Source: Claveliimonas bilis (GTDB lineage: Bacteria; Bacillota; Clostridia; Lachnospirales; Lachnospiraceae). Taken from it: a stretch of 64,000 nt of DNA. The position numbers and the translations under genes are program-made. The first letter of the stretch is position 1. Each line of letters begins with the position of its first letter. Below the pieces are notes generated by a model that saw only the letters and a program-made list of their open reading frames with translations, ran no database searches and had not been told where the DNA came from. The stretch covers positions 2,418,001 through 2,482,000 of the forward strand of contig NZ_AP024845.1 in NCBI RefSeq assembly GCF_020892095.1, read 5' to 3'. This document shows positions 529-46,697 of this stretch, piece by piece.

Positions 529-587
529 TTGATATTTATTTTTAAATTTGCTATGCTAGTAACAGTTGGTTAGATACAACTAACCAA
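529..587 (+). promoter_or_regulatory. Promoter with operator palindrome, box A
   Basis: TTGATA (529-534) and TATGCT (552-557) are separated by 17 bp. Directly downstream, over the expected transcription start, is a perfect palindrome TTGGTTAG-N6-CTAACCAA (566-587). The same core recurs at four other promoters in the window (near 2381, 5209, 9231 and 10191). Its placement suggests repression of the GNAT/methyltransferase pair. The rest of the gap 455-776 shows a leader of about 200 nt and no other gene. Confidence 0.7.
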
Positions 588-776
588 AATAAAAACACGC
601 AGACAGCTTAACTGAAAGTAAAAGATATTTCCACAGATGTCAGCTTCTCTGGGAAAACAGATCGTAAGATATTATAGTTGTCTTCGGAAAAAAGGATGTT
701 CGGCAACTTGTGGGATTGATAGGTACATAAAAGGGAAGGCGATAAACCTGATCAGCCGGCAGAGAGGAGGAATTTT

Positions 777-1415
777 ATGTTTATGATACGGCCATACAGA
801 GAGGAAGATGCAGGCGGCTGCGGGCAATGTTTTTACGAAGGCTTTTTCACCTGTCCCATTGATGAAAATGACAGGATTCTTTTGCGGGATTACGCTCAGG
901 TCCTGATAGAAAAGTGCAGTTTTACCTATGTGGCGGAAACTTTAGATCACCAGATCGCAGGTTTTATCAGCGGAAATTACGGAAAAAAATTCCGTCCGCT
1001 GAAGACAGATTCTGACAGGTGCAAAAAGCATTATATGGCCTGGTGCCGGATGTTCCTGAAATTTTATCTGAAAGGGTATTGTTTGTCCGAAGCGTTTCAG
1101 AAACAGCTGGACAGCTTTATTTTACAGGCGCGTGAGCGGGAAGAGCAGTTTTTTGACGGATGTGATCTGGAGCTGGTGGCTCTTACTTCCAGAACAGATT
1201 ACCGGAAAGGACTGGGAACGGTGCTGGTATCCAGATTTATGGACAGAGCGGGGAATGACGGGGCTGAAACTGTGCGGCTGTTGACGAATACTCTGGCATC
1301 CTGGAAATTCTATGAAAAGAGAGGGTTTACGAAAATCTTGGAAAAACCATTTCCGGACGGTTCCGGACAGAAAACAATTATTTATGAATACTGCCTCGGA
1401 CAGAGAGAAAAATGA
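777..1415 (+). CDS. GNAT family N-acetyltransferase
   Basis: A 212-residue protein of the GNAT superfamily, which transfers an acetyl group from acetyl-CoA to an amine. It starts with the typical IRPYREEDA strand-helix. The acetyl-CoA binding region is around residues 130-150 (ELVALTSRTDYRKGLGTVLV), and WKFYEKRGF in the C-terminal third is the usual GNAT beta-6/alpha-4 region. A strong AGAGGAGG ribosome site precedes the start; a second in-frame ATG two codons on is possible. The substrate is unknown. It is the first gene after operator box A and is probably co-transcribed with the methyltransferase 31 nt downstream. Confidence 0.8.
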   Translation: MFMIRPYREEDAGGCGQCFYEGFFTCPIDENDRILLRDYAQVLIEKCSFTYVAETLDHQIAGFISGNYGKKFRPLKTDSDRCKKHYMAWCRMFLKFYLKGYCLSEAFQKQLDSFILQAREREEQFFDGCDLELVALTSRTDYRKGLGTVLVSRFMDRAGNDGAETVRLLTNTLASWKFYEKRGFTKILEKPFPDGSGQKTIIYEYCLGQREK

Positions 1416-1446
1416 AATGTCCAGACAGCAAATCTGACTAGGGAGA

Positions 1447-2271
1447 ATGCAGGATATGGAGATGAATGGAAGAAAAGGGAAGCCGGTCAGACTCGGTACA
1501 CACGGAGAAAATTATGGGAACTGGATGTCCGCGCCGGTCTTTTATATGGTGGGTGCACTGGTTGTCTTCATGGCAGTCTTATGCGTTATATCGCATTTTA
1601 TTCCCGGCATGAGGCTGATCGGGGTTCTGGCGCTGATCGCTGCGGTGGTTGTGCTGATCCTGCTTGCCTGGATCACATGGATCCGACGGCAGTATGCCTT
1701 TGACGGGGGAGGCATGATGGAAAAGGTTCATGAGGTTCTTCTGTCTTACCTGGATTTCGACGGAAAGGGGACGCTTCTGGAGGTAGGATGCGGATCAGGC
1801 GCACTCTCCATCCGGGCGGCGATTTCCTGGCCGGAGGCAGAAGTGACCGGCATTGATTACTGGGGTGCAGTCTACAATTACAGTCAGACCATGTGCGAGA
1901 GTAATGCCCGGAGCGAGGGCGTATATGAACGTTGCAGTTTTCTTCACGGCGACGCCCGGAAATTAGACTTTCAGGATGAAACCTTTGATGCCGTAGTAAG
2001 CAATTATGTCTATCATAATATCAACGGCGCGGACAAGCAGGGTCTTCTGCTGGAAAGCCTGAGAGTGCTGAAAAAGGGTGGCGTGTTTGCCCTTAACGAT
2101 GACATGAAGCCCCGGATGTACGGAGATATGGAGGAGTTCGCAAAAAAACTGCGCAAAATGGGATACCGGGAAGTACGGATCATCGATACGGCACAGGAAG
2201 CCTTCGGCTCCCATCGCCGAGCCACGCTGATGATGCTGGGAAATTCCCGAATGATAGTAGGACAAAAATAA
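1447..2271 (+). CDS. Membrane-anchored class I SAM-dependent methyltransferase
   Basis: A 274-residue protein with two N-terminal transmembrane helices (about residues 31-52 and 58-80) followed by a cytoplasmic Rossmann methyltransferase domain. Motif I is LLEVGCGSGALSIRAA (about 111-126), motif II ends in the acidic VTGIDYW, and the post-motif region has FDAVVSNYVYHNI. The membrane anchor suggests a lipid-like or membrane-proximal substrate, but nothing in the sequence names it. It lies downstream of the GNAT gene, probably in one transcript under operator box A, and is followed by a short stem-loop. Confidence 0.8.
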   Translation: MQDMEMNGRKGKPVRLGTHGENYGNWMSAPVFYMVGALVVFMAVLCVISHFIPGMRLIGVLALIAAVVVLILLAWITWIRRQYAFDGGGMMEKVHEVLLSYLDFDGKGTLLEVGCGSGALSIRAAISWPEAEVTGIDYWGAVYNYSQTMCESNARSEGVYERCSFLHGDARKLDFQDETFDAVVSNYVYHNINGADKQGLLLESLRVLKKGGVFALNDDMKPRMYGDMEEFAKKLRKMGYREVRIIDTAQEAFGSHRRATLMMLGNSRMIVGQK

Positions 2272-2311
2272 GACTGATAAATATACTGCCAGTCTTATAT
2301 CAGAATATCCA

Positions 2312-2396
2312 TTGACATGCCTGAATTTGTCTTTTATACATTTACAGCCGTGGAGACACGGCTCATTTTTCAACATGTAGTTAGAAATAACTAATT
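2312..2396 (+). promoter_or_regulatory. Consensus promoter and operator box B
   Basis: TTGACA (2312-2317), a 17-bp spacer and TATACA (2335-2340) form a near-consensus promoter. About 40 bp downstream is TAGTTAG-AAATAA-CTAATTA (2378-2396), with core TTAG-N6-CTAA at 2381-2394. It faces the damaged gene at 2417. Confidence 0.6.
2346..2370 (+). terminator. Short stem-loop with T-run after the methyltransferase gene
   Basis: AGCCGTG-GAGA-CACGGCT followed by CATTTTT. The 7-bp stem is short but GC-rich. It also lies at the predicted start of transcription from the promoter at 2312-2340, so it could instead be part of that leader. Confidence 0.45.
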
Positions 2397-2416
2397 AAAG
2401 AAAGAAAAGACTAATT

Positions 2417-2773
2417 ATGAAGAAACAGAAATCCAAGCGGTGGCTGCTGTTTATTCTTGCCGGAATTGCAGCTATTGCAGCCGCACTCCATATATATCTT
2501 CCCGATCTTCTGGACAACTTAAGATCAGCCCAAACCTATGATGACCTGCATCTACGCTGTATTTACGGTGCTGGGGATTTGCCTGACTTTAGTTTTCTTG
2601 ACTTTTTTGCATGTAAATCCACTGATCCTTATATGGGGAACCTTCTTTCTGTTTTCACTTATTATAATTGTGCTGATAGCATAATGCATTTTCATGAAGA
2701 TACCGGTATCCTGAAAAATATAGAGTATTTGGAATATTTTAATTCAGCTTTGTTTTATTTAGAAAAGAACTAA
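2417..2773 (+). pseudogene. Small membrane protein gene with apparent frameshift
   Basis: The annotated frame starts MKKQKSKRW followed by one good transmembrane helix (about residues 9-28). After about residue 36 it becomes non-hydrophobic and unlike any family I know. The next frame, open from 2523 to the stop at 2682-2684, encodes two convincing hydrophobic segments (for example the stretches around AVFTVLGICLTLVFLTFL and LIWGTFFLFSLIIIVLIA). The simplest reading is a small three-helix membrane protein broken by an indel between about 2523 and 2545. It is driven by operator box B and lies before a decayed ABC-transporter gene. It could also be two separate tiny ORFs. Confidence 0.45.
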
Positions 2774-2807
2774 GCACCAGGGGAATTGTCGGCGCTTAGT
2801 TCTTTTC
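2762..2807. terminator. 14-bp perfect inverted repeat at the end of the small membrane gene
   Basis: GAAAAGAACTAAGC (2762-2775) pairs with GCTTAGTTCTTTTC (2794-2807), with an 18-nt loop. It overlaps the stop codon of the preceding frame. It may act as a terminator in both directions, since A- and T-rich ends lie on both sides. Confidence 0.5.
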
Positions 2808-2858
2808 ATCGTATCAGTGCTTTTATAGACCCATTTTCAGGGAAGGAATATTGTAGAC

Positions 2859-3398
2859 ATGTCTTATATGTCTTTCGTGTTCCAGGATGTGACTCTGTTC
2901 AATGATACTGTTATGAATAATATCCGACTTGGCAGTCCAAACGCAACAGACGAACAGGTGATTACTGCGGCAAAGGCAGCCTATTGTGATGAATTTGTAC
3001 GTGAAATGCCGGACGGGTATCAGACGGTCCTCGGTGAAAACGGCAGCACGCTTTCCGGCGGTGAGCGTTAGCGGATTTCCATCGCCCGTGCCTTGCTGAA
3101 AAACGCGCCGATCATTCTGCTTGATGAAGCGACAGCATCCCTTGATCCGGAGAATGAAGTTCTGGTTCAAAAGGCCATTGCAAAACTGGTGGAGGACAAG
3201 ACGGTCATTATGATCGCTCACCGGCTTCGTTCAGTAGTGGGCGCTGATCAGATATTTGTATTAGATGATGGGAAATTAGTAGAAAGTGGAACACATAGTG
3301 AGTTGATGGAAAAGAAAGGTTTATATCAGAGACTATATCATATTCAGCAGGAAAGCCTTGGCTGGGCTGTTCAAAAGTGTACTATTGATTTTGACTAA
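2859..3398 (+). pseudogene. ABC transporter ATPase, C-terminal remnant with nonsense codon
   Basis: This is only the last third of a fused permease-ATPase ABC gene. The Q-loop (FVFQDVTLF), the signature start (LSGGER), Walker B ([12 protein letters not shown]) and the H-loop (MIAHRL) are all present in one frame. The usual membrane domain and Walker A are missing. The conserved Gln after GGER is an amber codon (TAG 3069-3071, expected CAG), and the remaining frame runs to 3398. The C-terminus (ESLGWAV) resembles that of the intact ABC gene at 5741-7471 (EAAGWKL), so this is probably a decayed paralogue of that transporter family. Confidence 0.85.
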
Positions 3399-3401
3399 GG
3401 T

Positions 3402-3451
3402 AAAAAAATACCGAAGTTCAGTGTGTCTCGGTGGAACTTCGGTATTTTTTT
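3402..3451. terminator. Strong bidirectional terminator
   Basis: An 18-bp perfect inverted repeat (3402-3419 and 3434-3451) has a core ACCGAAGTTC paired with GAACTTCGGT, flanked by A7 on one side and T7 on the other. It sits between the ABC remnant and the convergent hipA gene. Confidence 0.9.
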
Positions 3452-3470
3452 CAGGAAAAGTGCCCGAATA

Positions 3471-4754
3471 TTATTGACGCCGGATTCCCCCTCTGGCAAG
3501 TATTTTTTCTTTTAGGTCGTGCGCATGGACAAATCCTTGAAGTTCAAGAGCAATCACGGCTTTATTAAGTGCCTCGTGAAAATGAGATACCATTGCATCA
3601 AATCGTTTCATCGCCAGATTAGTACCTAATCCAATATGCTTTGATTGTGCTTCAAAAGACTGTTTTGTTATTTCATTGAGTTTATATATACCTCCGATGC
3701 TCAAAGCCATATTTTCTGTGCTGCTTTCATAGATTACTGTGCTGATGATATCATAGGCAGGGGCGAGACGTATTGATTTTAAATCCGGGCTGTATAATAG
3801 AGACAGATTTTTAATATGGTTATCGGTGTTCCCGATAAGATAGTTGTAAATACATATATCCCATAGCTTTAGCTGATCTGTCATTGGATCTGCTGAATAG
3901 GCGCGGAGTAATGCAAACATTCTATTAAGATAGTCTTCATGCTCCCTCTCATATTTATTTGCTGAAGCAATACCGAGTGCTTGAGCGAAATCTTCCTGAT
4001 GAAGCCGGTAAGGAACGGAAAGTCCGTTTATTATTCTGGCATCGGGATGTATTTTTCGGTCATATCTTCTGGTCGCGAACAGGACATCACCGTCCGAAAA
4101 ATCACCAATATTTACTATGAAACTTTCTGGTATATCTATTCCTAAATTACGTGCGGTGAGAAGACACAGCTGTTCATTGGCTACAATTTCTTGTAAACGC
4201 ACATGGCTTTGCTTTACAATATGGGTGCTTGGAGCATCACCTACGGGAAGATACCACTGGTTGTTTTTTTCATCGTAATACAGACCGACTTTTCCTGAAG
4301 CTCCGGTAAGAGATAAATGTGATTTTGTGATTAACTGTGCAGATTCTGTAGCACCTTCTCTGGCTAGATTTTTCGCTTCAGCGTCTGTAAGCCTGCGATA
4401 TTCAGGCGGAAGATGCGGACTGTTTTGTGCGACAATCCTTACAGCTCCGAGACACTCGTGTCCTAAACCTGCAAGGATAGACAAATAATCGTTCTCATCT
4501 ACATGCATCCAGCTTGCTACACAACGACGGGTAAAACCTTCCGGAAGGAGACCGTCAAAAAATGTTTTTGTCTGTTCCGGAGAAAAGGCTGCTTTAGTAA
4601 GAGGCAAACTTATCGAAATGGGGCGGTTTTCCGGATTTAACAGATATTCGGGAGAGTATGTGAAACTCGCGCGTGCCGGAGTATCCCCAATGATATCCCC
4701 GACATAAATGCTTGTCCCGTTAATTTCTATAAATACCGTTAACTTATTGTTCAT
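3471..4754 (-). CDS. hipA: HipA-family toxin kinase
   Basis: A 427-residue protein of the HipA serine/threonine kinase family. The N-terminal HipA_N domain covers about residues 1-105. Then come a Gly/Ser-rich segment (SLTGASGK) and the ATP-binding region with HIVK. Catalytic elements are GNTDNHIKN, the catalytic loop with Asp and Asn, and LAPAYDI, which holds the metal-binding Asp. In E. coli, HipA phosphorylates glutamyl-tRNA synthetase and halts growth; the target here is not known. Length is close to E. coli HipA (440), so it looks intact. It starts 1 nt after the hipB stop, so the two genes are translated together. Confidence 0.9.
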   Translation of the reverse strand: MNNKLTVFIEINGTSIYVGDIIGDTPARASFTYSPEYLLNPENRPISISLPLTKAAFSPEQTKTFFDGLLPEGFTRRCVASWMHVDENDYLSILAGLGHECLGAVRIVAQNSPHLPPEYRRLTDAEAKNLAREGATESAQLITKSHLSLTGASGKVGLYYDEKNNQWYLPVGDAPSTHIVKQSHVRLQEIVANEQLCLLTARNLGIDIPESFIVNIGDFSDGDVLFATRRYDRKIHPDARIINGLSVPYRLHQEDFAQALGIASANKYEREHEDYLNRMFALLRAYSADPMTDQLKLWDICIYNYLIGNTDNHIKNLSLLYSPDLKSIRLAPAYDIISTVIYESSTENMALSIGGIYKLNEITKQSFEAQSKHIGLGTNLAMKRFDAMVSHFHEALNKAVIALELQGFVHAHDLKEKILARGGIRRQ

Positions 4755-4755
4755 C

Positions 4756-4974
4756 TTATCCTCGCTTTTCTATCAATATATCTAATCCGAGTATATTAAT
4801 GATTTTAAGTGTTTTTTCTAATTCGACCGTGGGCTTCCCGCGTTCCAGGTCAGAAATAAAGCTGACGCTGAATCCCGTGAATTCGGATAAATATGTCTGT
4901 GTATAGTGGAGCTCTTTTCTTCGGTCGCGTATTGCTTTGCCAAGCGATTTTGCATCAATTATTTTCATTTCCAA
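4756..4974 (-). CDS. hipB: HipB-like antitoxin, XRE-type DNA-binding protein
   Basis: A 72-residue protein that is almost entirely one Cro/C1 helix-turn-helix (about residues 10-65: LGKAIRDRRKEL, YLSEFTGFSVSFISDLERGK). It is first in the hipBA operon, as antitoxins usually are, and is expected to neutralise HipA by binding it and to repress the operon. Three copies of a palindrome lie between it and the promoter, fitting autoregulation. Confidence 0.88.
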   Translation of the reverse strand: MEMKIIDAKSLGKAIRDRRKELHYTQTYLSEFTGFSVSFISDLERGKPTVELEKTLKIINILGLDILIEKRG

Positions 4975-4982
4975 CTTCCTTT

Positions 4983-5113
4983 TTAGCCGAGCGGCATGAT
5001 TTTTTTAAGTGGTCAATAAATTAGCCGTTCGGCTTTATTCCATAAATTACCTCAAAATTTAGGCGAACGGCTAATTTTTAATATAGTATACTCTGAATTT
5101 ATCTGTTTTGCAA
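4983..5113 (-). promoter_or_regulatory. hipBA promoter with three operator palindromes
   Basis: On the minus strand TTGCAA (5108-5113) and TATACT (5085-5090) are 17 bp apart. Downstream are three related palindromes of the form TTAGCCG-N2-CGGCTAA: 5059-5074 (TTAGGCGAACGGCTAA), 5021-5036 (TTAGCCGTTCGGCTTT) and 4983-4996 (TTAGCCGAGCGGCA). Multiple spaced sites are typical of cooperative HipBA repression. Confidence 0.75.
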
Positions 5114-5175
5114 TGAGAAAGATTTTATTCTTGCTTACTGAAACAAATTGCAGGTGGTTTTTAATTGCCTACCCA

Positions 5176-5222
5176 TTGTGTTTTTCACCAAAAAGCGTTA
5201 TATTTTAGTTAGGCACAACTAA
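5176..5222 (+). promoter_or_regulatory. Promoter with operator box C
   Basis: A weak -35 TTGTGT (5176-5181) and TATATT (5199-5204) are 17 bp apart. TAGTTAG-GCACAA-CTAATC follows, with core TTAG-N6-CTAA at 5209-5222, over the predicted transcription start. Confidence 0.6.
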
Positions 5223-5244
5223 TCGAAGAAAGAGGGAATGAACC

Positions 5245-5478
5245 ATGGGAAGGTATTATCGGTTGTCTAAGGCGTTGAGCGAAGCAGAAGCTTCAGAAAT
5301 TATGCGTGAGGTCCGCGAAATTGAAGAAGTAGATGAGGCTGAGTATTCCGAGGGATATACCAAGATTCTCGTTTTCACTAATAAGGAAAAATATCCGGAG
5401 GTCATGACGAGGATTGTCAATATTGTCAGTCGTGTGGGGCAGGGATGCGAATTAAGCTTTGCCGGGTTTGCGGTCTGA
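5245..5478 (+). CDS. Small HMA-like (ferredoxin-fold) protein
   Basis: A 77-residue soluble protein with an alternating strand/helix pattern: RYYRLSKAL, helix SEAEASEIMREVREI, strands VDEAEYSE and TKILVFT, a second helix YPEVMTRIVNIVSRV and a last strand. This pattern resembles the beta-alpha-beta-beta-alpha-beta heavy-metal-associated fold found at the N-terminus of metal P-type ATPases. It lacks the CxxC metal site; its only Cys is near the C-terminus. A clear AGAAAGAGGG ribosome site precedes the ATG. It stands alone under operator box C. The function is unknown; the fold assignment is by eye. Confidence 0.55.
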   Translation: MGRYYRLSKALSEAEASEIMREVREIEEVDEAEYSEGYTKILVFTNKEKYPEVMTRIVNIVSRVGQGCELSFAGFAV

Positions 5479-5683
5479 AACAAAATAAAGACTACCGTTT
5501 TCATATCAAGTAGTCCTGTATTGGTATGCTTCTTGGCCTGCCAGCCTGCCTTGCAGTGGGAACAATCACAGCAATCCTCTGATCAGCCAGCAATAGAATC
5601 TAGACGGAGGGGTGCTCCCCAAAATCCAAATAAGGGGGGGGTTGGCCCCTGAAATAAGGGTTGCAAAAGAGAAGAGACAGTTC

Positions 5684-5724
5684 GCCGGAGAATACAAGTC
5701 TTAAAAAAGCCCGAATTCTCCGGC
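5684..5724 (-). terminator. Stem-loop after the ABC transporter pair
   Basis: GCCGGAGAAT (5684-5693) pairs with ATTCTCCGGC (5715-5724). It lies 17 nt past the stop of the ABC gene and is followed on the minus strand by a pyrimidine-rich stretch. The rest of the gap 5479-5740 shows only a G8 run and a short hydrophobic frame of 18 codons, with no convincing gene. Confidence 0.6.
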
Positions 5725-5740
5725 AGGCAGACTCATACTT

Positions 5741-7471
5741 TTACAGTTTCCACCCCGCAGCTTCTTTCCTGACTCCCAGGAAATCCCGGTAGATCCCAGG
5801 TGTATCCTTGAGCTCTGCATGGGTTCCATTCTGCACGATCCGTCCTTCGTCCAGCACCAGGATCCGATCTGCTTTTTGTACAGTCTTGAGCCGATGGGCG
5901 ATCATCAGGATTGTTTTATCACGCATCAGCTCTTCCATGGCTTTCTGAAGTTTATCTTCATTTTCCGGATCAACATTTGCCGTTGCTTCGTCAAAGATAA
6001 TGATGGGTGCGTTTTTCAGCATTGCCCGCGCAATGGAGATGCGCTGTTTTTCACCGCCGGACAATGTGGCTCCGCCTTCCCCGATCACCGTGTCATAACC
6101 GTCCGGCAGATCGGAAATAAAATCATGGCAGCAGGCTTTTTTCGCAGCGGCAACAACCTGATCGTGGCTGGCATCCGGCTTCCCGAATTTGATATTGTTC
6201 TCAATCGTGTCTGCGAAGAGATATACATTCTGGAATACCATACTGATCTGATCCATGAGGGATTCCAGTGTATACTCCTGGATATCTGTGCCGCCGATAC
6301 AGATCGAGCCGCTGTCCACATCCCAGAACCGGGCGATCAGACTGCACAGGGTGGTCTTTCCGGAACCGCTGGGCCCTATGATGGCAGTAGTGGTGCGGTC
6401 CGGTATTGTTACGTTAACATTTTTCAGAATCGGTCTCTTATCGTAAGAAAAGTTCACATGATCGAAAGAAATATCATGCCTTTTCGGATATACCGGTCTT
6501 CCGGTGCTGTCCATTTCCGGAATCTCGTCAATCTGGTCTGCATGGTCGATGGAACTTCCGACCACACGCAGCAGGGACACCGCGCTTCCCGTGGACTGGA
6601 TCTGCGAGAAGACTAAGAAGGAAATGACCACGGTCATCAGCGCATCGGAAAGCGTCATGCTCCCGTTCAGGCAGAAAATGATCCCGGCTCCCATAATCAG
6701 TACGGAGAACAGATGCAGGCTCAATTCCTGGGCGACCATATAGGGGGTGAAGAGGCGCTCAATGTCAAGATTGCTCTTCCGGTTATATTCCAGCGCTCCT
6801 CTGACCCGGCGGTCGCCTTTCCCGGTCAGGTTAAAGGATTTGATCACGCTCATGCCCTGGATCTGTTCCAGTACGGCGTCTACAAGCTGGACTTCGGACT
6901 CCTGACGCCGGGGCGTCACCCGGGCAGATTTTTTCTCCATAGCAGAAGTAATGAGCAGATAAAGTACTGTGCCTGCAAGGGAAAGAAAGCCGATGCGCCA
7001 GTCAAATCCGAACACACAGAGGAGAAATACAATGGAATTGATAAAACCGCTGAGGATATTGACAAGCACCACAGGCCCGTTGCTCTCCACTACGTCGAGT
7101 ACAGTGGTGGAGATCCCGGTGATCTCGCCAAGGCTCCGGGCATTAAAATACCCCATAGGAATCCGTTTCAGTTTATCACCGATGGCAATTCTTTTATTTG
7201 CAACCATGAAGTATCCAGCGTGGGTCTGTTGAAGCTGGGTGAAGCGGTTGATGATGGCTCTCCCGGCTATGCTGGCAATGAGTAGAAGAAGAGCGGTCCA
7301 TGCCGCATGGTGTGTCAGGTCTCCGCCGGTAAGGGCGAGCACCACAAAATAGATTGCTGCGATCTGGAACATGTGGAATATTGCGTAGAAAAAGCCCCAG
7401 AAAGTGGATTTGTTGATATTTTTCTGTTCCTCTCCTGCAAACTGATAAAGTTTTTTCAATACTGCGATCAT
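5741..7471 (-). CDS. ABC transporter, fused permease/ATPase (YbtP/Q-like), second subunit
   Basis: A 576-residue type IV ABC half-transporter. The N-terminal membrane domain (about residues 1-310) has around six helices. The ATPase domain has Walker A GPSGSGKTT, Q-loop MVFQNVYLF, signature LSGGEKQR, Walker B IIIFDEATANVD and the H-loop IAHRL, all canonical. Its start overlaps the stop of the upstream ABC gene by 4 nt (ATGA), so the two subunits are translationally coupled and probably form a heterodimer. Similar pairs (YbtPQ, IrtAB) import metal-siderophores although built like exporters, while others export drugs; the sequence alone does not decide. Controlled by operator box D upstream of the partner gene. 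Confidence 0.88.
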   Translation of the reverse strand: MIAVLKKLYQFAGEEQKNINKSTFWGFFYAIFHMFQIAAIYFVVLALTGGDLTHHAAWTALLLLIASIAGRAIINRFTQLQQTHAGYFMVANKRIAIGDKLKRIPMGYFNARSLGEITGISTTVLDVVESNGPVVLVNILSGFINSIVFLLCVFGFDWRIGFLSLAGTVLYLLITSAMEKKSARVTPRRQESEVQLVDAVLEQIQGMSVIKSFNLTGKGDRRVRGALEYNRKSNLDIERLFTPYMVAQELSLHLFSVLIMGAGIIFCLNGSMTLSDALMTVVISFLVFSQIQSTGSAVSLLRVVGSSIDHADQIDEIPEMDSTGRPVYPKRHDISFDHVNFSYDKRPILKNVNVTIPDRTTTAIIGPSGSGKTTLCSLIARFWDVDSGSICIGGTDIQEYTLESLMDQISMVFQNVYLFADTIENNIKFGKPDASHDQVVAAAKKACCHDFISDLPDGYDTVIGEGGATLSGGEKQRISIARAMLKNAPIIIFDEATANVDPENEDKLQKAMEELMRDKTILMIAHRLKTVQKADRILVLDEGRIVQNGTHAELKDTPGIYRDFLGVRKEAAGWKL

Positions 7472-9210
7472 GCCGCGTCACCATCCTTTGTGCCAATATG
7501 TGCCTGCCACATTCCGTGGTACATTGCACTTTGTTTTAAGAGTTCCTCATGTGTTCCGGATGCAGAGATCCGTCCGTTTTCTACGACAAAGATTTGGTCT
7601 GCGTCCGTGATGGTAGAGAGGCGGTGGGCAATGACGATTACGGTCTTCCCTTTTACCAGTTTGGCCACAGCTTTCTGGACGACAGCCTCATTTTCGGGAT
7701 CGATATATGCGGTAGCCTCATCCAGGATCACGATGGGCGCATCCTTTAGCATGGCCCGTGCGATGGCAATCCTCTGTCGTTCGCCGCCGGAGAGATGGGC
7801 GCCTCCTCTGCCCACCACGGTATCGTAGCCGTTTTCCGGTTTCCGTATGAAGAAATCACAGCCTGCGGCTTTTGCCGCGGCTTCTACTTCCGCATCGCCG
7901 GCTCCGGGTTTCCCCATGCGGATGTTTTCCCGTACCGATTCATTAAACAGATAATTGTCCTGAGAGACGAATGCAGTATGTTCATAAAGCTGGCGGAGAG
8001 GGATATCCTTTAAATCATGTCCGCCTAAAGTGATCCTGCCTTTTTCTACATCCCAGAACCCTGCGATCAGCTTTGCGATCGTTGATTTCCCGCTGCCGGA
8101 CGGACCGACGAACGCGGTCATGGTTCCGGCCGGGATGGACAGAGAAACATCTTGCAGGATCTCCTGATCCGCGTGATAGCCGAAAGACACATGATCCAGC
8201 CGAATATCCTCAGAAGGGAAAGATACCGGCGTCAGAGCGTGCTGCTGTTCTTCGCTGTTTAAGATGGAGTCAACTTCGTTTACGATAGTCCCAACTTTTG
8301 CCAGACTGTCCACGAAATCCATGGCGGCAAGCAGAGGGCCGGCAATGCCGAGGGAGAGGATGATGACAGTGATAAAAGTCTCGATATTCAGTGAGCCGCC
8401 CAGATACATGATCCAGCCCGCGGGAAGAATGGTGATTAATGTTGTGGGCGCCAGTGTCCGTGAAATGGACACTGGGAGCTGGCAGCTCCTCATCCAGTGA
8501 TAGAAGTAGGATGCGTTTGCGAGGACGCGCTGAGAAAATTTTGCATAGGAATTTTTCCCCTGATTGAATGCTTTGATTACTTCAATACCACCGATATATT
8601 CTACGATGGTAGAGTTCATCGCCTGCGTAACCTTGACAGCCCCTTCATATTGTTTCCCGTAATTTGCCATCACAGCCATCATGAACGCCATGCCGACAGG
8701 GATAGAGACGAGAGAGAGCAGCGCCATCCGCCAGTCAAGGACAAATAGATAGATCAGGATGCAGACCGGAGCCAGTATATTTGACGTCATCTCCGGCAGA
8801 AGGTGCGCAAGAGGCCGTTCCATACTTTCAACCTGATCCACGATGATCTGCTTCATCTGGCCACTGGGGGTGTCCATGACAGTTCCCAGCGGGAGTTTTG
8901 GAAGCTTTGCAAGGATACGTTCCCGGATACTTTTTAAAATAGCGAAGGTTGCTTTATGCGACATGGAGAGTGCGAGCGCATAAAGAACCACCCGAAGGAT
9001 GTAGCCGCCCAGCGCCAGACAGCACCAGAACAGATAAAATGAAGTGTTCTGCTTAGAATGAATAAGACCTATGATGATCTGTGCTGCTGCGAAATATGGC
9101 AGTATGCCGCATAAAACGCCGACGGACGCGGAAAAAACCGCGCGTATCAGCCCACCTTGATATTGTTCCCCAAGCTCCCACAGCCGGAGCATAGGACTTT
9201 TTTCCTGCAT
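7468..9210 (-). CDS. ABC transporter, fused permease/ATPase (YbtP/Q-like), first subunit
   Basis: A 580-residue ABC half-transporter. The membrane domain (about residues 20-320) is followed by an ATPase domain with Walker A GPSGSGKST, Q-loop FVSQDNYLF, signature LSGGERQR, Walker B IVILDEATAYID and H-loop IAHRL. Both ATP sites of the pair look active, unlike the asymmetric pair at 17-20.6 kb. The start is set by an AGGAGG site 7 nt upstream. It is the first gene of a two-gene operon and lies downstream of operator box D. The divergent position of peroxiredoxin genes under the same box suggests a shared role in metal or redox stress (inference). Confidence 0.88.
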   Translation of the reverse strand: MQEKSPMLRLWELGEQYQGGLIRAVFSASVGVLCGILPYFAAAQIIIGLIHSKQNTSFYLFWCCLALGGYILRVVLYALALSMSHKATFAILKSIRERILAKLPKLPLGTVMDTPSGQMKQIIVDQVESMERPLAHLLPEMTSNILAPVCILIYLFVLDWRMALLSLVSIPVGMAFMMAVMANYGKQYEGAVKVTQAMNSTIVEYIGGIEVIKAFNQGKNSYAKFSQRVLANASYFYHWMRSCQLPVSISRTLAPTTLITILPAGWIMYLGGSLNIETFITVIILSLGIAGPLLAAMDFVDSLAKVGTIVNEVDSILNSEEQQHALTPVSFPSEDIRLDHVSFGYHADQEILQDVSLSIPAGTMTAFVGPSGSGKSTIAKLIAGFWDVEKGRITLGGHDLKDIPLRQLYEHTAFVSQDNYLFNESVRENIRMGKPGAGDAEVEAAAKAAGCDFFIRKPENGYDTVVGRGGAHLSGGERQRIAIARAMLKDAPIVILDEATAYIDPENEAVVQKAVAKLVKGKTVIVIAHRLSTITDADQIFVVENGRISASGTHEELLKQSAMYHGMWQAHIGTKDGDAA

Positions 9211-9230
9211 AAGAATTCCTCCTTTTTGAG

Positions 9231-9258
9231 TTAGAAATCACTAACCACATATTTTATA
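9231..9258 (-). promoter_or_regulatory. Operator box D upstream of the ABC pair
   Basis: On the plus strand GAGTTAG-AAATCA-CTAACC, core TTAG-N6-CTAA at 9231-9244, about 20 bp upstream of the ABC start. On the minus strand it follows an AT-rich TATAAAAT that could be a -10 element (about 9249-9258); no good -35 is seen. Confidence 0.6.
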
Positions 9259-9297
9259 AAAAGACCGCCGCCTGCGGTACCGGACAGGAAACGGTCT
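9258..9297 (-). terminator. Terminator of the TetR gene
   Basis: On the minus strand AGACCG...CGGTCT with additional CCTG/CAGG pairing (arms 9262-9267 and 9292-9297) is followed by TTTTT. It separates the TetR gene from the box D promoter. Confidence 0.75.
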
Positions 9298-9327
9298 GAT
9301 TACCGGTGGTTACTGCTCACACTGTAC

Positions 9328-10023
9328 TCAGAAACCGACAGTGCTCCCGGTGTCAGTGGCCCCCGGAGATTCCCGCTCCGGGTTGAAGATGGTGGTAAAC
9401 CCCTGCATGTGATAGTTGTTGAGAAGATGAATGTATTTTACCGCATCCGCCTTATTCATCCGGTGCCGCACGACCTCAAACATGCCGTTGAAATAAGCGG
9501 TCGTGACGATGTGAATAAAATCTTCGGTGATCAGTCCAGATTTTACGCTTTCACAGCCGATGACTTCCATATATTTATAAGTGTATTCCACTTCTATATC
9601 TACCAGCTTATCCAGAAAAGCAGAAAAGCGGGTGCCTTGTGCGCAGTCCAGAAGAAGGCAGAATTCATCGAAATGAGCGTAGATAAAATCCAGCATAGCA
9701 ATTTGATGATTGGATGTATATTGTCCCATTTCTGCGCGCTGCGTACTTTCATTCAGATTATGGAAATCCTCCTGTATTCCTAAAAACATCTCCGTGAGCT
9801 GATTTGCGGCAGGGGCAACAATGGCCTCAAAAAGACCTTCCTTATCTCCAAAGCGGGTATAGATGGAACCGGTGCTTGTGCCGGCTTCCTGTGCGATGAT
9901 CCGCAAGGATGCATCTTTATAACCTTTCTCTAAAAATTCCTTTTTGGCGCAGGAAAGTATCGCTTCGTATACGCCTTCGATCTGTTTTGCCATAGTGGTG
10001 TCATTTCCTTTCGATTGATTCAT
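9328..10023 (-). CDS. TetR/AcrR family transcriptional regulator
   Basis: A 231-residue regulator. The N-terminal TetR helix-turn-helix is at about residues 20-65 (ILSCAKKEFLEKGYKDASLRIIAQEAGTSTGSIYTRFGDKEGLF split over helices 1-4), and the C-terminal two thirds are a helical ligand and dimerisation domain. Such proteins usually repress neighbouring transporter genes and are released by a small ligand. It lies upstream of the ABC pair in the same direction but has its own promoter and terminator. Two direct copies of AACAGCGTT between its -10 and start codon differ from the TTAG boxes, so it probably regulates itself through those. Ligand unknown. Confidence 0.88.
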   Translation of the reverse strand: MNQSKGNDTTMAKQIEGVYEAILSCAKKEFLEKGYKDASLRIIAQEAGTSTGSIYTRFGDKEGLFEAIVAPAANQLTEMFLGIQEDFHNLNESTQRAEMGQYTSNHQIAMLDFIYAHFDEFCLLLDCAQGTRFSAFLDKLVDIEVEYTYKYMEVIGCESVKSGLITEDFIHIVTTAYFNGMFEVVRHRMNKADAVKYIHLLNNYHMQGFTTIFNPERESPGATDTGSTVGF

Positions 10024-10077
10024 AACGCTGTTTTAAAACGCTGTTATGATTATAAACGATTTTAGGATATGTGTCAA
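10024..10077 (-). promoter_or_regulatory. TetR-gene promoter with tandem repeats
   Basis: On the minus strand TTGACA (10072-10077), a 17-bp spacer and TATAAT (10049-10054) form a consensus promoter. Two direct copies of AACAGCGTT (plus-strand AACGCTGTT at 10024-10032 and 10037-10045) follow, 13 bp apart, just ahead of the start codon. These are good candidates for TetR autoregulation. Confidence 0.7.
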
Positions 10078-10157
10078 TAGGAGTTATTGGGATTTCAAAT
10101 CCGTACAGTACCATGGCTGAGTTATATTGATAAAAGTTATTATTATCAATATTTTTA

Positions 10158-10204
10158 TTGACAAAGGATGGATTCACAGCTACAATTTGATTAGTCATAA
10201 CTAA
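10158..10204 (+). promoter_or_regulatory. ahpC promoter with operator box E
   Basis: TTGACA (10158-10163) and TACAAT (10181-10186) are exactly 17 bp apart. Immediately downstream is TTGATTAG-TCATAA-CTAACCAA with core at 10191-10204, covering the expected transcription start. Its arms match box A at 7 of 8 positions on the left and all 8 on the right. Confidence 0.75.
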
Positions 10205-10235: not shown

Positions 10236-10799
10236 ATGTCATTGATCAACAAAGAAATTAGCGAGTTTTGTGTGCAGGCATATCATAATAAGGCATTTAA
10301 AGAAGTGAAAAAAGAGGATGTGCTGGGCAGATGGAGTATTTTCTTCTTTTATCCGGCGGACTTTACTTTTGTGTGCCCGACAGAACTGGAGGACCTTGCG
10401 GACAAATATCCGGAATTCCAAGCGACAGGATGTGAAGTCTACTCTGTATCCTGCGATACCCATTATGTTCACAAAGCATGGCACGATGCGTCTGACCGGA
10501 TCAGAAAGATAGGATACCCTATGCTGGCGGATCCGACCCATGTGATTTCAAGGGACTTTGAGGTTTACATTGAGACAGATGGCGTGGCAGAGAGAGGAAC
10601 ATTTATCGTAAATCCCGAAGGAAAGATTGCGGCCTATGAAGTCAATGCGGGAAATGTAGGGCGCAACGCGGATGAACTGTTGCGTAAACTGCAGGCTTGC
10701 CAGTTCGTATATGAGCATGGAGACGAGGTGTGCCCTGCAAAATGGCAGCCCGGGGCAGAGACGCTGAAACCCAGTCTGGATCTGGTCGGCCAGTTATAA
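10236..10799 (+). CDS. ahpC: Alkyl hydroperoxide reductase AhpC (typical 2-Cys peroxiredoxin)
   Basis: A 187-residue peroxiredoxin that reduces H2O2 and organic peroxides. The peroxidatic Cys47 is in FTFVCPTE, and the resolving Cys166 is in EVCPAKW near the C-terminus. The conserved Trp and Arg region (DRIRKIGYPMLADP) is present, and the length is exactly that of E. coli AhpC. The start is set by GAGGAGG (10220-10226). The reductase partner follows 78 nt downstream, so the pair forms a complete NAD(P)H-dependent peroxide reduction system. Expression should be controlled by operator box E. Confidence 0.95.
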   Translation: MSLINKEISEFCVQAYHNKAFKEVKKEDVLGRWSIFFFYPADFTFVCPTELEDLADKYPEFQATGCEVYSVSCDTHYVHKAWHDASDRIRKIGYPMLADPTHVISRDFEVYIETDGVAERGTFIVNPEGKIAAYEVNAGNVGRNADELLRKLQACQFVYEHGDEVCPAKWQPGAETLKPSLDLVGQL

Positions 10800-10877: not shown

Positions 10878-12569
10878 ATGATGAAGGAATTATATGATGT
10901 AGTTGTAATTGGAGGAGGTCCTGCCGGGCTGACAGCCGCTCTTTACCTGGCGCGGGCACGCTATAGTGTGGTCGTCGTGGAAAAGGAGCAGTTCGGAGGA
11001 CAGATCGTGATCACAGAAGAGGTAGTGAACTATCCGGGAGTGGAGCACACATCAGGGAGAGAACTGACTGAGAGTATGTGCCGACAGGCTCAGAATTTCG
11101 GGGCGGAATTTCTGCTTGCAGAAGTGACGGAGCTTGATATGTCCGGAGATATAAAAAAACTAAAGACCAGCCGCGGTGAACTCTCCTGTTTCGGCGTGCT
11201 GCTGGCAGCCGGAGCCCATCCTCGCAAGGTAGGCTTTCAGGGGGAAGAGGAATTCCGTGGAAGAGGGATCGCCTACTGTGCTACCTGCGATGGAGAATTT
11301 TTTACCGGAAGAGACGTCTTTGTGATCGGCGGCGGATTTACGGCTGCCGAGGAGAGTGTATTCCTGACGAAATATGCGCGTCATGTGACGATTCTGATCC
11401 GGGGAAACGGATTCAGTTGTGCGCCGTCTGCCGCGGAGCCGGCGCTGAACCACGAAAAGATCTCTGTGCTCACGAATGCGGAAGTGATTGAAGCGTCGGG
11501 GGAAAGTACGCTTGAATATCTGCGCTATCGGAATACCGTTACGGGAGAGATCACGGAATACCGACCACCGGCAGGGGAGAATTTCGGAGTCTTCGTCTTT
11601 GCCGGATATGAGCCTGCTACGGATCTGGTGAGAGGGATCGCGGAGTGTGATGAGCGCGGTTATATTGTGACAGACCGCCTGATGAAGACAAGCTGTGACG
11701 GGTTGTATGCTGCCGGTGACGTATGTATCAAACCTTTGAGACAGGTGGTTACGGCAGTGGGCGACGGCGCTCTAGCAGCGACAGAACTGGAGCGCTACGC
11801 TGCCACCATGCAGAAAAAGACCGGGCTCCATCCGGCACAGCCGTCGGCAGAGCGTCCGGGAGAGTGGGCTGTGGATCCTGCAGGACAAACGTCTGCCGTT
11901 TCCGGGGAAATCGCGGGCAGCCGTGAGTCAGAATCAGCCGGCATCTTTACCCCGGAGATGACCGCACAGTTAAGGACAGTGTTCAATAAGATGTCGTCTC
12001 CGCTGATATTGGAGCTGTATCTGGATGATACGCCCCTTTCAACGGAACTGAAGAGTTATATGGAAGAGCTTGACAGGTTGACAGAAAAGATACAGGTGAA
12101 AAACAACCGGTTATCTGATCTGGACTCTGCTCTGGTGAAAGCGGAAGAGATGCCCTGTGTGAGGATATGCAGGAGGAATGGAGAGTGGAGTGGACTCGCC
12201 TTTCACGGCGTGCCCGGCGGACATGAATTTACGTCGTTTGTTCTTGGACTTTATAATGTGGCGGGCCCCGGACAACCACTCGGTGAGAAAACACTGTCAG
12301 ATATACGGAAAATATTGAGCACAGTAAATATGAAGATTCTGGTCTCCCTGTCCTGCACCATGTGCCCGGAGCTGGTAACGGCTGCCCAACGCATTGCTGC
12401 GGAGGATCCTTTTGTGACGGCGGAAGTTTATGATCTGAATCATTTTCCGACGCTCAAAGACCGGTACCAGGTCATGAGCGTCCCCTGCCTTGTGATCAAT
12501 GACGGGGAAAAAGTTGTGTTTGGGAAGAAGAATGTGGAGCAGGTAGTGGAGTTGATAAACAGTCTGTAA
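10878..12569 (+). CDS. AhpF-like peroxiredoxin reductase with permuted domains
   Basis: A 563-residue flavoprotein. Residues 1-310 are a thioredoxin-reductase module with FAD motif GGGPAGLTAA, redox pair CATC (about 136-139), NAD(P)-binding GGGFTAAEE and C-terminal FAD motif AAGDV. After a low-complexity linker (about 315-350), residues about 355-563 form a tandem thioredoxin-fold domain like the N-terminal domain of AhpF, with its redox pair CTMC at 493-496. In classical AhpF this domain comes first, so the order here is reversed. It should pass electrons from NAD(P)H via FAD and both disulfides to the AhpC encoded just upstream. Fusions of this order occur in some Clostridia. Confidence 0.88.
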   Translation: MMKELYDVVVIGGGPAGLTAALYLARARYSVVVVEKEQFGGQIVITEEVVNYPGVEHTSGRELTESMCRQAQNFGAEFLLAEVTELDMSGDIKKLKTSRGELSCFGVLLAAGAHPRKVGFQGEEEFRGRGIAYCATCDGEFFTGRDVFVIGGGFTAAEESVFLTKYARHVTILIRGNGFSCAPSAAEPALNHEKISVLTNAEVIEASGESTLEYLRYRNTVTGEITEYRPPAGENFGVFVFAGYEPATDLVRGIAECDERGYIVTDRLMKTSCDGLYAAGDVCIKPLRQVVTAVGDGALAATELERYAATMQKKTGLHPAQPSAERPGEWAVDPAGQTSAVSGEIAGSRESESAGIFTPEMTAQLRTVFNKMSSPLILELYLDDTPLSTELKSYMEELDRLTEKIQVKNNRLSDLDSALVKAEEMPCVRICRRNGEWSGLAFHGVPGGHEFTSFVLGLYNVAGPGQPLGEKTLSDIRKILSTVNMKILVSLSCTMCPELVTAAQRIAAEDPFVTAEVYDLNHFPTLKDRYQVMSVPCLVINDGEKVVFGKKNVEQVVELINSL

Positions 12570-13269: not shown

Positions 13270-13701
13270 ATGATGATGCCTAGTATTTTTGGAGAGAATT
13301 TATTTAATGACTGGTTTGATTTTTCATTTCCGGAGGTGGACAGAAGATATACAGGACGTACGGATCAGATTATGAAGACGGACGTTAAGGAAAAAGACAA
13401 TGGTTATGAAGTGGAGATTGATCTGCCTGGATTCAAGAAAGAAGATATTAAGGCAGAATTGAAAGAAGGATATTTGACGATCAGCGCTGCCAGAAATGTC
13501 AGCAATGAAGAGAAAAAGGAAGGAAAATATATCCGTCAGGAGCGTTTCACAGGCAATGTGAGCAGAAGCTTTTATGTTGGAAAGAATATTACGCAGAATG
13601 ATATCCATGCGAAATTTGAGAATGGTATTCTTACATTAGACATTCCTAAAGTGGATGAGAAGCAGGTGGAAGAAAACCGTTATGTTACAATTGAAGGATA
13701 A
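13270..13701 (+). CDS. Hsp20/alpha-crystallin family small heat-shock protein
   Basis: A 143-residue ATP-independent holdase chaperone. A short hydrophobic N-terminal arm (IFGENLFNDWFDFSFPE) is followed by the alpha-crystallin domain (about residues 37-135) with the strands YEVEIDLPGFKKEDIKAEL and the conserved FENGILTLDIPK near the end. It keeps unfolding proteins soluble for DnaK/DnaJ. It is first in an operon with a DnaJ-like gene, under a CIRCE-like operator, fitting HrcA-controlled heat-shock induction. The leader of about 100 nt holds a small ORF and a hairpin. Confidence 0.93.
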   Translation: MMMPSIFGENLFNDWFDFSFPEVDRRYTGRTDQIMKTDVKEKDNGYEVEIDLPGFKKEDIKAELKEGYLTISAARNVSNEEKKEGKYIRQERFTGNVSRSFYVGKNITQNDIHAKFENGILTLDIPKVDEKQVEENRYVTIEG

Positions 13702-20695: not shown

Positions 20696-21181
20696 TTACA
20701 GAGTACATTCCTGAAGCTGCCGGCGGAAGATCAGGCGGAACAGAAATCTGACAAGCGGACCGCAGAAAAAAATCTGCCAGCAAAGCGCCATGGGAAAATT
20801 GATGGCTACTGTCTGAAGCCACACTGCTGCAATCTGCACTCCAGCTTGCTTAAAGATGAGGGTTGCCCACAGACTCATGGAAGGACACATAAAGCATACA
20901 GTGACACCAGCGCGCACAAGAGTGACAAGTACAGGATGATCCCTCTTTGGATCCACCATACGAAACGCAATTCCGGAAGCAATCCGATCCATCAGAAAAT
21001 AGCTGGTTGCAAAGCACAAAGGAATCATAAAAGGAAGTTCCGACAGTGCATGGATAAAGCAGGAATTAGACATGCCTCCCTGAAGGAGAGCGGTATTATA
21101 AATTTCCATCGCAAGTACCATAAAGAAAGACATCAGTAAAGTAAAAATGATTTCCTGAAAACGATTTTTTGGCATATGCAT
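20696..21181 (-). CDS. DUF2798 family membrane protein
   Basis: A 161-residue protein with about four transmembrane helices. It opens with PKNRFQEIIFTLLMSFFMV and has the family-like ELPFMIPLCF, FRMVDPKRD and CFMCPSMSLWATL segments, with a basic C-terminus. The sequence reads as two repeats of a two-helix unit. The function of this family is not established. It lies 56 nt upstream of the ABC exporter pair, and the downstream side of its start borders the 132-bp repeat. Confidence 0.8.
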   Translation of the reverse strand: MHMPKNRFQEIIFTLLMSFFMVLAMEIYNTALLQGGMSNSCFIHALSELPFMIPLCFATSYFLMDRIASGIAFRMVDPKRDHPVLVTLVRAGVTVCFMCPSMSLWATLIFKQAGVQIAAVWLQTVAINFPMALCWQIFFCGPLVRFLFRLIFRRQLQECTL

Positions 21182-21650: not shown

Positions 21651-22832
21651 TCACGCAGAAGGAGACGATGGAAGAAAAGAAAAAGAGGCAGGAGCCCGGC
21701 ACCGATGCTTTCGCATAACCTTTTCGTATAATTCATGCAAAGGAACCGGTCTGTGGTTGAAATATAATTCAAGAAAAAGCATGGTCGTACCACAGGAAGG
21801 ACACTTTAAAGGATCATATCCGAAGGAATGCAGGATGGAATCCCGCCAACGGTTAAAAGAAAGAAATATCTTATGCTTTTCCCTTGAAATAGCCCGGCGG
21901 AGGTATTTGTCAGATTTACGGTGCCTGGCATAGATGCCATAGTAACGGATCATTTTGAAATGTTTTTCCGGGATATGCTGGGTAAGCCTGGCTATGAAAT
22001 CAAGGACCGGGATGGTTTCAGAGACCAGTTTTTCATCTTCATGCCGATGATAATGAAAGGTAACAAATTCGCCATCATAAGAATCAATGCGGGAGGTTGC
22101 GATCACAGGGCGTCCGAGATAACGGCCAATGTACTTGATCACGTGAGATGGATTACATTTGTTGGGTAAGGCCCGGACGTAAAAACCATTTTTGTGATCG
22201 GCATAGACAGAAGCCTTAAGCTTTTTAAAAGGGTCACCGATCCTGGAATGTAATTCGTTGAGAAGAACGGTCTGGAAAGAATCCCGCAGGAGTTTGTAGT
22301 TGAAGTGCTTTTTGTGGCGCCAGCGCAGAGAGAGGCCAACGCCGCCTTCGGAAACGAGACAATGGATATGAGGATTCCATTTCAGATCCCTGCCAAAGGT
22401 ATGAAGGACACAGATAAAACCAGGAGTAAAGCGTTCAGCATAGTTATCTTTGAGGAACATACGGGAGACGACGCGGTTGACAGCAGAAAAGAGGCAATTT
22501 AAGAGCGAACGGTCCTGCAGGAACAGAGGACGGAGTTCTCTGGCAATGGTAAACACACAATGGCGATGCTGGACATGGATGATTTTAAAAGACATCGAGG
22601 TAGTCCTGTCAATGGAATACATGTTACCGCAGGAAGGACAGAAGCGGGAGTGACAGCGAAAAGGGAGAAACTTAAGATTACCGCAGGAAGGGCAGGCATA
22701 CATGGTGCCACCAAAAGAGGGATCGCCGCAATGGATCATTTTTTCTACATTTTCGATGACAGAGTCACGAGGATGTTGGATATAGAGCATTTCTTCAAAA
22801 TGGTCTGTAAAAATCTTCTGTAAGATATTCAT
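21651..22832 (-). CDS. IS91-like transposase with zinc-binding N-terminus
   Basis: A rolling-circle (HUH) transposase of about 393 residues from the ATG at 22832; the open frame extends to 22919. The N-terminal zinc-binding domain has Cys pairs (YACPSCGN, RFCPSCGN). The catalytic HUH motif is WNPHIHCLV, and the nucleophile Tyr is expected in HVIKYIGRYLGRPV. A C-terminal zinc pair lies at CPSCGTTM. It appears intact and could be active. Confidence 0.88.
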   Translation of the reverse strand: MNILQKIFTDHFEEMLYIQHPRDSVIENVEKMIHCGDPSFGGTMYACPSCGNLKFLPFRCHSRFCPSCGNMYSIDRTTSMSFKIIHVQHRHCVFTIARELRPLFLQDRSLLNCLFSAVNRVVSRMFLKDNYAERFTPGFICVLHTFGRDLKWNPHIHCLVSEGGVGLSLRWRHKKHFNYKLLRDSFQTVLLNELHSRIGDPFKKLKASVYADHKNGFYVRALPNKCNPSHVIKYIGRYLGRPVIATSRIDSYDGEFVTFHYHRHEDEKLVSETIPVLDFIARLTQHIPEKHFKMIRYYGIYARHRKSDKYLRRAISREKHKIFLSFNRWRDSILHSFGYDPLKCPSCGTTMLFLELYFNHRPVPLHELYEKVMRKHRCRAPASFSFLPSSPSA

Positions 22833-23115
22833 AAGACTATTATGAAGGAAAAAGACACAAAAAGAAACCCCTAATCCCCTCAAGATTGAGGGGCGGGGGA
22901 GTTGAAGTGTCGAAGACACTTTTTTATGGATGAAAGCGTCAAAGAATGATTCACATACATATATGTTTCTTACAAAAACTTTACATATGATTTACTGAAT
23001 GATGATAGTTGGGTGATAAGGCACATGGTATTATAAAAATGAACTTAGTTCCGCGGATATGATAAGAAAATGAAATAAGTTCTTTGTTAAGTGAATAAAA
23101 ACAAGGAGGAAGAAC

Positions 23116-46226: not shown

Positions 46227-46697
46227 ATGTCTATAAGTCAGGAAAAATTTAAGGAAATGCTGAAAGAAAAGGGACTCAAAGTAACCAATCAAAGGTTGCT
46301 TGTGTTACAAGTGCTTGCAGAGCATCATGAGCAGCACATGACTGCAGAAGACATTTTTGAACTGGTGAAGGAGGATTATCCGGAGATCGGTCTGGCAACG
46401 ATCTATCGGACGGTTCAGCTTCTGCTGGAAATGCAGCTTGTAGATAGGATTATTTTGGATGATGGGTGTGTGCGGTACGAGATAGGGGATTTCTGCGACG
46501 AAAGAACAGAACCCCATCATCACCATCATCATTTGATCTGCCGTGACTGTGGGAGCGTAATGGAATTTCGGGATGATCTTCTGGAGAACCTGGAGGATCA
46601 TATTGAGAAAGAAACAGGCTTCCACGTTATGGATCACGAGCTGAAATTCTATGGACAGTGCAGAAAATGTCGAGAAAAGCAAAATAACGGAAAATAA
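46227..46697 (+). CDS. Fur family metal-dependent repressor
   Basis: A 156-residue regulator. The winged helix (about 10-90) has KVTNQRLLVLQVLAEHHEQHMTAEDIF and GLATIYRTVQLL. The metal-binding C-terminal half has a run of six His, HLICRDCGSVMEF and the second zinc CxxC in CRKCREK. Fur, PerR and Zur cannot be told apart safely by eye; the context (before RNase J) is a fixed Lachnospiraceae arrangement. It is a candidate sensor for iron or peroxide. Confidence 0.88.
   Translation: MSISQEKFKEMLKEKGLKVTNQRLLVLQVLAEHHEQHMTAEDIFELVKEDYPEIGLATIYRTVQLLLEMQLVDRIILDDGCVRYEIGDFCDERTEPHHHHHHLICRDCGSVMEFRDDLLENLEDHIEKETGFHVMDHELKFYGQCRKCREKQNNGK

Follow-up and report, generated by a model that had tools for sequence, protein, structure and literature searches.

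The stretch analysed here, called the window, is 64,000 nucleotides of contig NZ_AP024845.1 from Claveliimonas bilis, a member of the Lachnospirales (positions 2,418,001 to 2,482,000), and its first part carries five copies of the palindrome TTAG-N6-CTAA. This palindrome is very probably an iron box, the operator of an EqbA-type repressor of the DtxR family without the SH3-like domain, whose Fe2+-loaded dimer would block feoAB, other importers and the genes in the window. The box keeps a strict spacing, lies over predicted promoters and stands between FeoB and DtxR-type genes in relatives. As judged from sequence, the regulator is most likely a DtxR-family protein encoded at 436 kb in the same genome.

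A first-pass annotation of this DNA had placed the five palindromes at 570-583, 2381-2394, 5209-5222, 9231-9244 and 10191-10204, and all five are exact there; as an observation, the cluster is confirmed. Six matches to TTAG-N6-CTAA were found in the window, against a mean of 0.96 in dinucleotide shuffles, none of 100 of which reached six. The sixth match (13636-13649) lies within an Hsp20 open reading frame (ORF) and is probably background. When the gap was varied from 0 to 12, a gap of 6 gave the six matches and every other gap at most one. Each of the five boxes precedes a different ORF, as had been claimed, at 21 to 194 bp from the box end (194, 23, 23, 21 and 32 bp to the ORFs at 777, 2417, 5245, 9210 on the - strand and 10236). 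Because the whole genome (3.04 Mb) has 23 such sites, five in 9.6 kb represent a real cluster.

Distribution of the box in the genome and in relatives

The term "local regulon" used in the first-pass annotation proved too narrow, as the box also occurs at feoA and feoB, ATP-binding cassette (ABC) transporter pairs, energy-coupling factor (ECF) operons, a second GNAT gene and a Fur-family gene, and at feoAB in relatives. The broader idea of an operator-like palindrome common to several transcription units was borne out, and metal control is indicated. Intergenic positions, assigned by a simple ORF rule, account for 17 of the 23 genomic sites and for all eight exact copies of the longer form, GTTAG-N6-CTAAC. 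These eight precede feoA, three ABC pairs (window 9231; genome 2336130 and 2938475), two ECF S-component (Trep_Strep) operons (genome 2934677 and 2947758) and two GNAT paralogues (window 570; genome 2916924). Near-exact sites were found before feoB, at the three remaining window places including ahpC, and twice upstream of the Fur-family gene at 2619337; five more (400270, 1124193, 2510085, 2897761 and 2930910) have no clear role. The feoA box includes the -10 element of a TTGACA-17-TATACT promoter.

Linkage in relatives was scored on FeoB. Of 46 genomes with both genes, 17 carry a DtxR-like gene no more than 4 kb away from a FeoB gene. A sample of named genomes was made up of the 80 best regulator loci with 3.5-kb flanks, the best matches being Mediterraneibacter species; FeoB genes were present in the flanks of 42 loci and divergent from the DtxR gene in 39. 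The intervals between the two genes at these 39 loci hold 28 exact boxes in 30.9 kb, compared with 19 in the other 522.7 kb of the 80 loci, and the interval contains an exact box in 24 loci and a box with at most one mismatch in 39/39. Exact matches with eleven other gaps (1 to 12) numbered one between DtxR and FeoB genes and one elsewhere; a gap-10 variant with one mismatch was present in the interval at 5/39 loci. The -10 element of the best-scoring sigma-70 promoter overlaps the box at 33/39 loci, a count that has no shuffled control and in which the -10 shares letters with one box half; 32 of these 33 elements have the same register relative to the box. Upstream of 30 FeoB genes in other relatives (800 bp each), 18 regions had an exact box and 25 a box with at most one mismatch, while gaps of 3 to 5 and 7 to 9 gave no exact match and at most one locus with one mismatch.

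A match to the 436-kb regulator at E <= 1e-5 was found in 54/61 genomes. The 46 genomes with a match at E <= 1e-20 contain 231 exact boxes in 139 Mb (83 for the same pattern read backwards), and the 15 genomes without one contain 17 in 28.9 Mb (reversed control, 24). One genome of the same genus (G002) has neither regulator nor box. A less selected sample of 22 exact-site loci, one site per locus, from 21 other genomes had 16 intergenic sites and 6 within ORFs, 5 of the latter in genomes without the regulator at E <= 1e-20. Linkage to feo or DtxR genes was seen in 7/15 loci with intergenic sites (L229, L231, L234, L238, L239, L240 and L244); the remaining ones include ABC genes, DUF2325, DUF3793, a Na/Ca exchanger, a methyltransferase and a RimM gene. 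DUF2325 and DUF3793 genes stand downstream of exact boxes in four relatives (L226, L229, L231 and L241), and these genes may be iron regulated.

Candidate regulator, precedents and competing proteins

The first-pass annotation saw no obvious regulator in the window, and the best candidate is indeed encoded outside it, at G000:C1:436050-436406. This gene, one of three DtxR-family genes detected with Pfam, encodes 119 amino acids with two domains above cut-off (PF01325, 5.4e-11; PF02742, 3.2e-14) and ends after the dimerisation domain, with no SH3 domain. At 80 related loci, the length from the start of the match to the stop is 116 to 133 amino acids. Among 31 matching PDB sequences, which include MntR, DtxR and IdeR, the best are MntR of Bacillus and of Escherichia coli, which share its short architecture. 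The Glu of the MntR manganese site is replaced by Cys, however, the targets here are ferrous iron genes, and the NCBIfam MntR models score 81.5 bits (cut-off 153) and 62.9 bits (cut-off 138), below equivalog level. In the metal site, C100 aligns with DtxR C102 and N9 with DtxR M10; across the 80 loci the Cys is present in 80/80 and the Asn in 77, with Asp in 3, although the search pattern itself favoured DACR.

The half-sites had been likened in the first-pass annotation to those of DtxR and IdeR, with the reservation that the spacing differs. The likeness stands and the reservation falls: the IdeR single-dimer half site has been redefined as TTAGGNNNNCCTAA, a sequence of the form TTAG-N6-CTAA, and two overlapping copies of it make up the 19-bp site (PMC8464063). 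Because one IdeR dimer binds TTAGGNNNNCCTAA, the present spacing is the DtxR spacing, and fold family and single-dimer geometry are shared with the actinobacterial proteins (PMC8464063). The differences are in number and length. Classical IdeR/DtxR operators span 19 bp, contain CCTAA repeats and take two dimers, whereas the site here is that of a single dimer, the first C of the repeat is not kept, and the regulator is half as long. Neither the classical 19-bp site, TTAGGTTAGSCTAACCTAA, nor the C-terminal SH3-like domain was found: only a single TTAG-N6-CTAA is seen at the five window sites and in a logo built from 71 boxes, and the 436-kb protein and its 80 loci end without the domain. IdeR Gln43 touches the first C of CCTAA (PMC8464063), and the 436-kb protein has Val at this position in a by-eye alignment; we infer that the Val and the loss of the C go together.

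Judged by its published description, EqbA of Streptococcus equi is the closest precedent. EqbA is DtxR-like, has no SH3 domain and carries Cys and Asn at two metal positions (PMC3672683), as the 436-kb protein does at the positions of DtxR Cys102 and Met10. It shifted a palindrome fragment containing GTTAG-ATGTAT-CTAAC with Fe2+, with Zn2+ and, less completely, with Mn2+; eqbE transcripts were 13-fold higher once the eqbA gene was deleted (PMC3672683). The core GTTAG-N6-CTAAC is common to that operator and the present boxes, and the 436-kb protein would bind it with Fe2+ as EqbA does. EqbA controls iron import through ABC genes, which are likewise among the predicted targets here. It is encoded together with a siderophore cluster, the equibactin locus, on the mobile element ICESe2, with a 36-bp palindrome before one operon (PMC3672683), whereas the present boxes are scattered genome-wide and include feoAB.

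Among the other proteins that might read the box, the two further DtxR paralogues (G000:C1 2926977 and 2939973) deserve most attention, and there is some chance, though clearly a minority one, that one of them acts at the window boxes and the 436-kb protein at feoAB. They belong to the right family, the 2.92-2.95 Mb region that encodes them has four exact boxes, and EqbA is likewise encoded with its siderophore cluster (PMC3672683). Across the order, however, the orthologue adjoining the box is the feo-linked one, and the paralogues match the 436-kb protein at 51% and 39%, so that their specificity could differ. Conjugation-type genes (DUF3991/Toprim, TraG/VirD4-like) were seen beside the second DtxR paralogue and ABC genes at L045 4719-8110 and L020, an arrangement that recalls the equibactin element.

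Binding by the TetR-family protein of the window (9328-10023) and its homologues appears improbable. The box lies within 300 bp past the gene end in 24/28 TetR homologues, usually just before a large ORF, which is an ABC transporter in the window and at two other places of this genome. In the ~200 bp upstream of the TetR genes themselves, however, it was found only at L201 and on the shared ahpC side of L197, and the feoAB box adjoins DtxR rather than TetR genes.

A Fur-family protein, to which iron control in Clostridia is commonly ascribed, is an equally poor prospect. Fur/PerR boxes are of the TGATAAT type, unlike the present box. Two near-exact boxes lie upstream of the Fur-family gene at 2619337, but this position fits a target equally well, and neither of the remaining Fur loci has a DtxR box. 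The window itself encodes a Fur-family regulator (46227-46697), whose surrounding 3.4 kb are free of the box.

We give slightly less credit still to a MarR-family regulator resembling MepR of Staphylococcus aureus, which recognises a GTTAG signature (PMC3617543, PMC8044140). The operators are alike in this word, but the protein family differs and the linkage is not seen here. Twenty MarR-like loci (3 kb each) had no strong box, the best position weight matrix score being 12.0, for one site in two overlapping loci, compared with 28 to 34 for the five training sites. The MarR gene nearest the window (2386806) has no box, and the conserved neighbour of the feoAB box is a DtxR gene. An ORF of 161 codons in the window (20696-21181), considered as a MarR protein, was rejected; it is DUF2798.

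That the cluster is a chance gathering of a short motif, a 14-mer that the reversed pattern outnumbers, is hardly credible given the shuffles, the gap specificity and the conservation in other genomes. The reversed pattern gave 70 genomic matches against 23; for the 16-mer the figures are 54 and 19 when one mismatch is permitted, and the exact 16-mer reverses this order (8 against 3). The control is not composition-matched: the window contains just 110 TTAG and 74 CTAA words, compared with 397 of GATT and 264 of AATC. For the feoAB and TetR-ABC boxes, chance has already been refuted; for boxes 2 and 3 of the list below, taken alone, it keeps a small probability.

Genes behind the boxes in the window

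The cluster comprises the following features, in window coordinates.

562..591 (core 570-583), +: DtxR-type box 1, TTGGTTAG-ATACAA-CTAACCAA, before the GNAT and methyltransferase genes; promoter-like sequence at 529-557 just upstream
777..1415, +: GNAT acetyltransferase, first gene past box 1
1447..2271, +: S-adenosylmethionine (SAM) methyltransferase (Pfam)
2381..2394, +: DtxR-type box 2, one mismatch to GTTAG-N6-CTAAC
2417..3398, +: remnant; small membrane ORF 2417-2773 (no Pfam match), then a stop-broken ABC-ATPase fragment (ABC nature by eye)
5209..5222, +: DtxR-type box 3, one mismatch
5245..5478, +: 77-amino-acid protein, no Pfam or NCBIfam match
5741..9210, -: heterodimeric ABC transporter of YbtPQ/EqbKL-like layout (7468-9210, then 5741-7471; Pfam for 7468-9210, NCBIfam for both)
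9231..9244, -: DtxR-type box 4, an exact GTTAG-N6-CTAAC copy flanked by the TetR gene and the ABC pair
9328..10023, -: TetR-family regulator, before box 4; own promoter without box
10191..10204, +: DtxR-type box 5, one mismatch, 4 bp past a TACAAT -10
10236..10799, +: ahpC, alkyl hydroperoxide reductase C (TIGR03137, above cut-off)
10878..12569, +: AhpF-like NAD(P)H:peroxiredoxin reductase (TIGR03143, above cut-off)

Arms of 8 bp had been ascribed to the best copies, and the copy at 570 is perfect over them, the only one that is; that at 10191 has one mismatch. Coverage of the start site at three promoters was not reproduced: in the scan, two sites had a promoter immediately ahead of them (529-557 and 10158-10186), and the scan as a whole was weak, with 22 matches compared with a shuffle mean of 17.0 (standard deviation 4.0). 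The GNAT gene probably shares a transcript with the methyltransferase gene. One further GNAT copy was found in 61 genomes, in this same genome, 63% identical and likewise with an exact box. The product of ORF 5245, which had been called HMA-like, has no domain match that bears the label out; homologues were found in 7/97 other genomes searched.

Box 2 is retained before a decayed ABC transporter remnant, with a terminator-like hairpin just upstream (2346-2363). Boxes 2 and 3 flank a toxin-antitoxin-type pair, a HipA-like kinase and a HipB-like helix-turn-helix protein (3471-4974, -). The TetR gene has a promoter at 10049-10077 (-) that matches the consensus at 12/12 positions (TTGACA-17-TATAAT), and the adjacent repeated CGCTGTT words could be TetR's own operator. 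An IS91-type transposase (Y2_Tnp, Zn_Tnp_IS91) lies at 21651-22919 (-).

Predicted iron-dependent repression and its significance

We postulate that the regulator, a winged helix joined to a metal-binding dimerisation domain, would occupy GTTAG-N6-CTAAC as a single metal-loaded dimer when Fe2+ is plentiful. Lying over or just past the -10, or over the start, the bound dimer would occlude the promoter and shut off feoAB and the importers of the ABC and ECF classes; in this strain the same would hold for ahpC/ahpF, the GNAT/methyltransferase pair and the small ORF. As Fe2+ falls, the repressor would leave, and the importers would be expressed, together with the peroxiredoxin system and the GNAT gene in this strain. 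Binding by the protein, Fe2+ as its ligand, repression and the action of the 436-kb paralogue at the window sites are all predictions of this scheme.

Several observations weigh against it. The feoB mRNA of Roseburia intestinalis was 1.8-fold up under low iron but also 3.8-fold up under high iron (PMC4659462), a pattern that simple repression does not predict. The response of Clostridioides difficile to iron limitation is under Fur control (PMC6311696), and the present genome has three Fur-family genes as well as the two additional DtxR paralogues, both beside ABC transporter genes. The promoter of the 436-kb gene itself has no box. A gap-2 variant with one mismatch occurs between DtxR and FeoB at 14/39 loci (overlapping a gap-6 box in 11 cases and free of such overlap in 3), and 5/30 FeoB upstream regions (800 bp) have no box. 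The higher box density in genomes with the regulator speaks for the scheme, but its Mann-Whitney value (p = 2e-4) is uncorrected for phylogeny or completeness, and among the 15 genomes that lack the regulator several are incomplete. Presence at orthologous promoters, to which the first-pass annotation had attached weight together with position outside genes, is uneven: the box is kept at feoAB and TetR-ABC, but near the ahpC start it was found in 3/11 genomes (this one, G014 and G027), and in the ORF 5245 family in 2/8, with a third 621 bp upstream. The closest ahpC homologue (80% identical) has no box near its start; in G014, a DtxR gene adjoins ahpC.

Control of iron uptake through a DtxR-family box seems to extend to many gut bacteria of the group. 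We lean, with considerable reserve, towards a wider reading in which an EqbA-type DtxR protein, not Fur, would be the master ferrous-iron repressor of the Lachnospirales. The single-dimer, -10-containing box would be ancestral at feoAB, and the regulon would have spread here to peroxide defence, an acetyltransferase and transporters, with one third of it within 10 kb. A literature search that covered few subscription papers returned no account of such a regulon in Lachnospirales; regulator and box have precedents, and the master role at feoAB across the group is undescribed as far as that literature goes. These are abundant gut bacteria whose iron sensing is poorly covered in it. A named box and a named regulator, together with the listed targets, open the group's iron response to direct tests. 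The scheme would also place single-dimer use of TTAG-N6-CTAA in a second phylum and tie an equibactin-type regulator to core ferrous-iron uptake.

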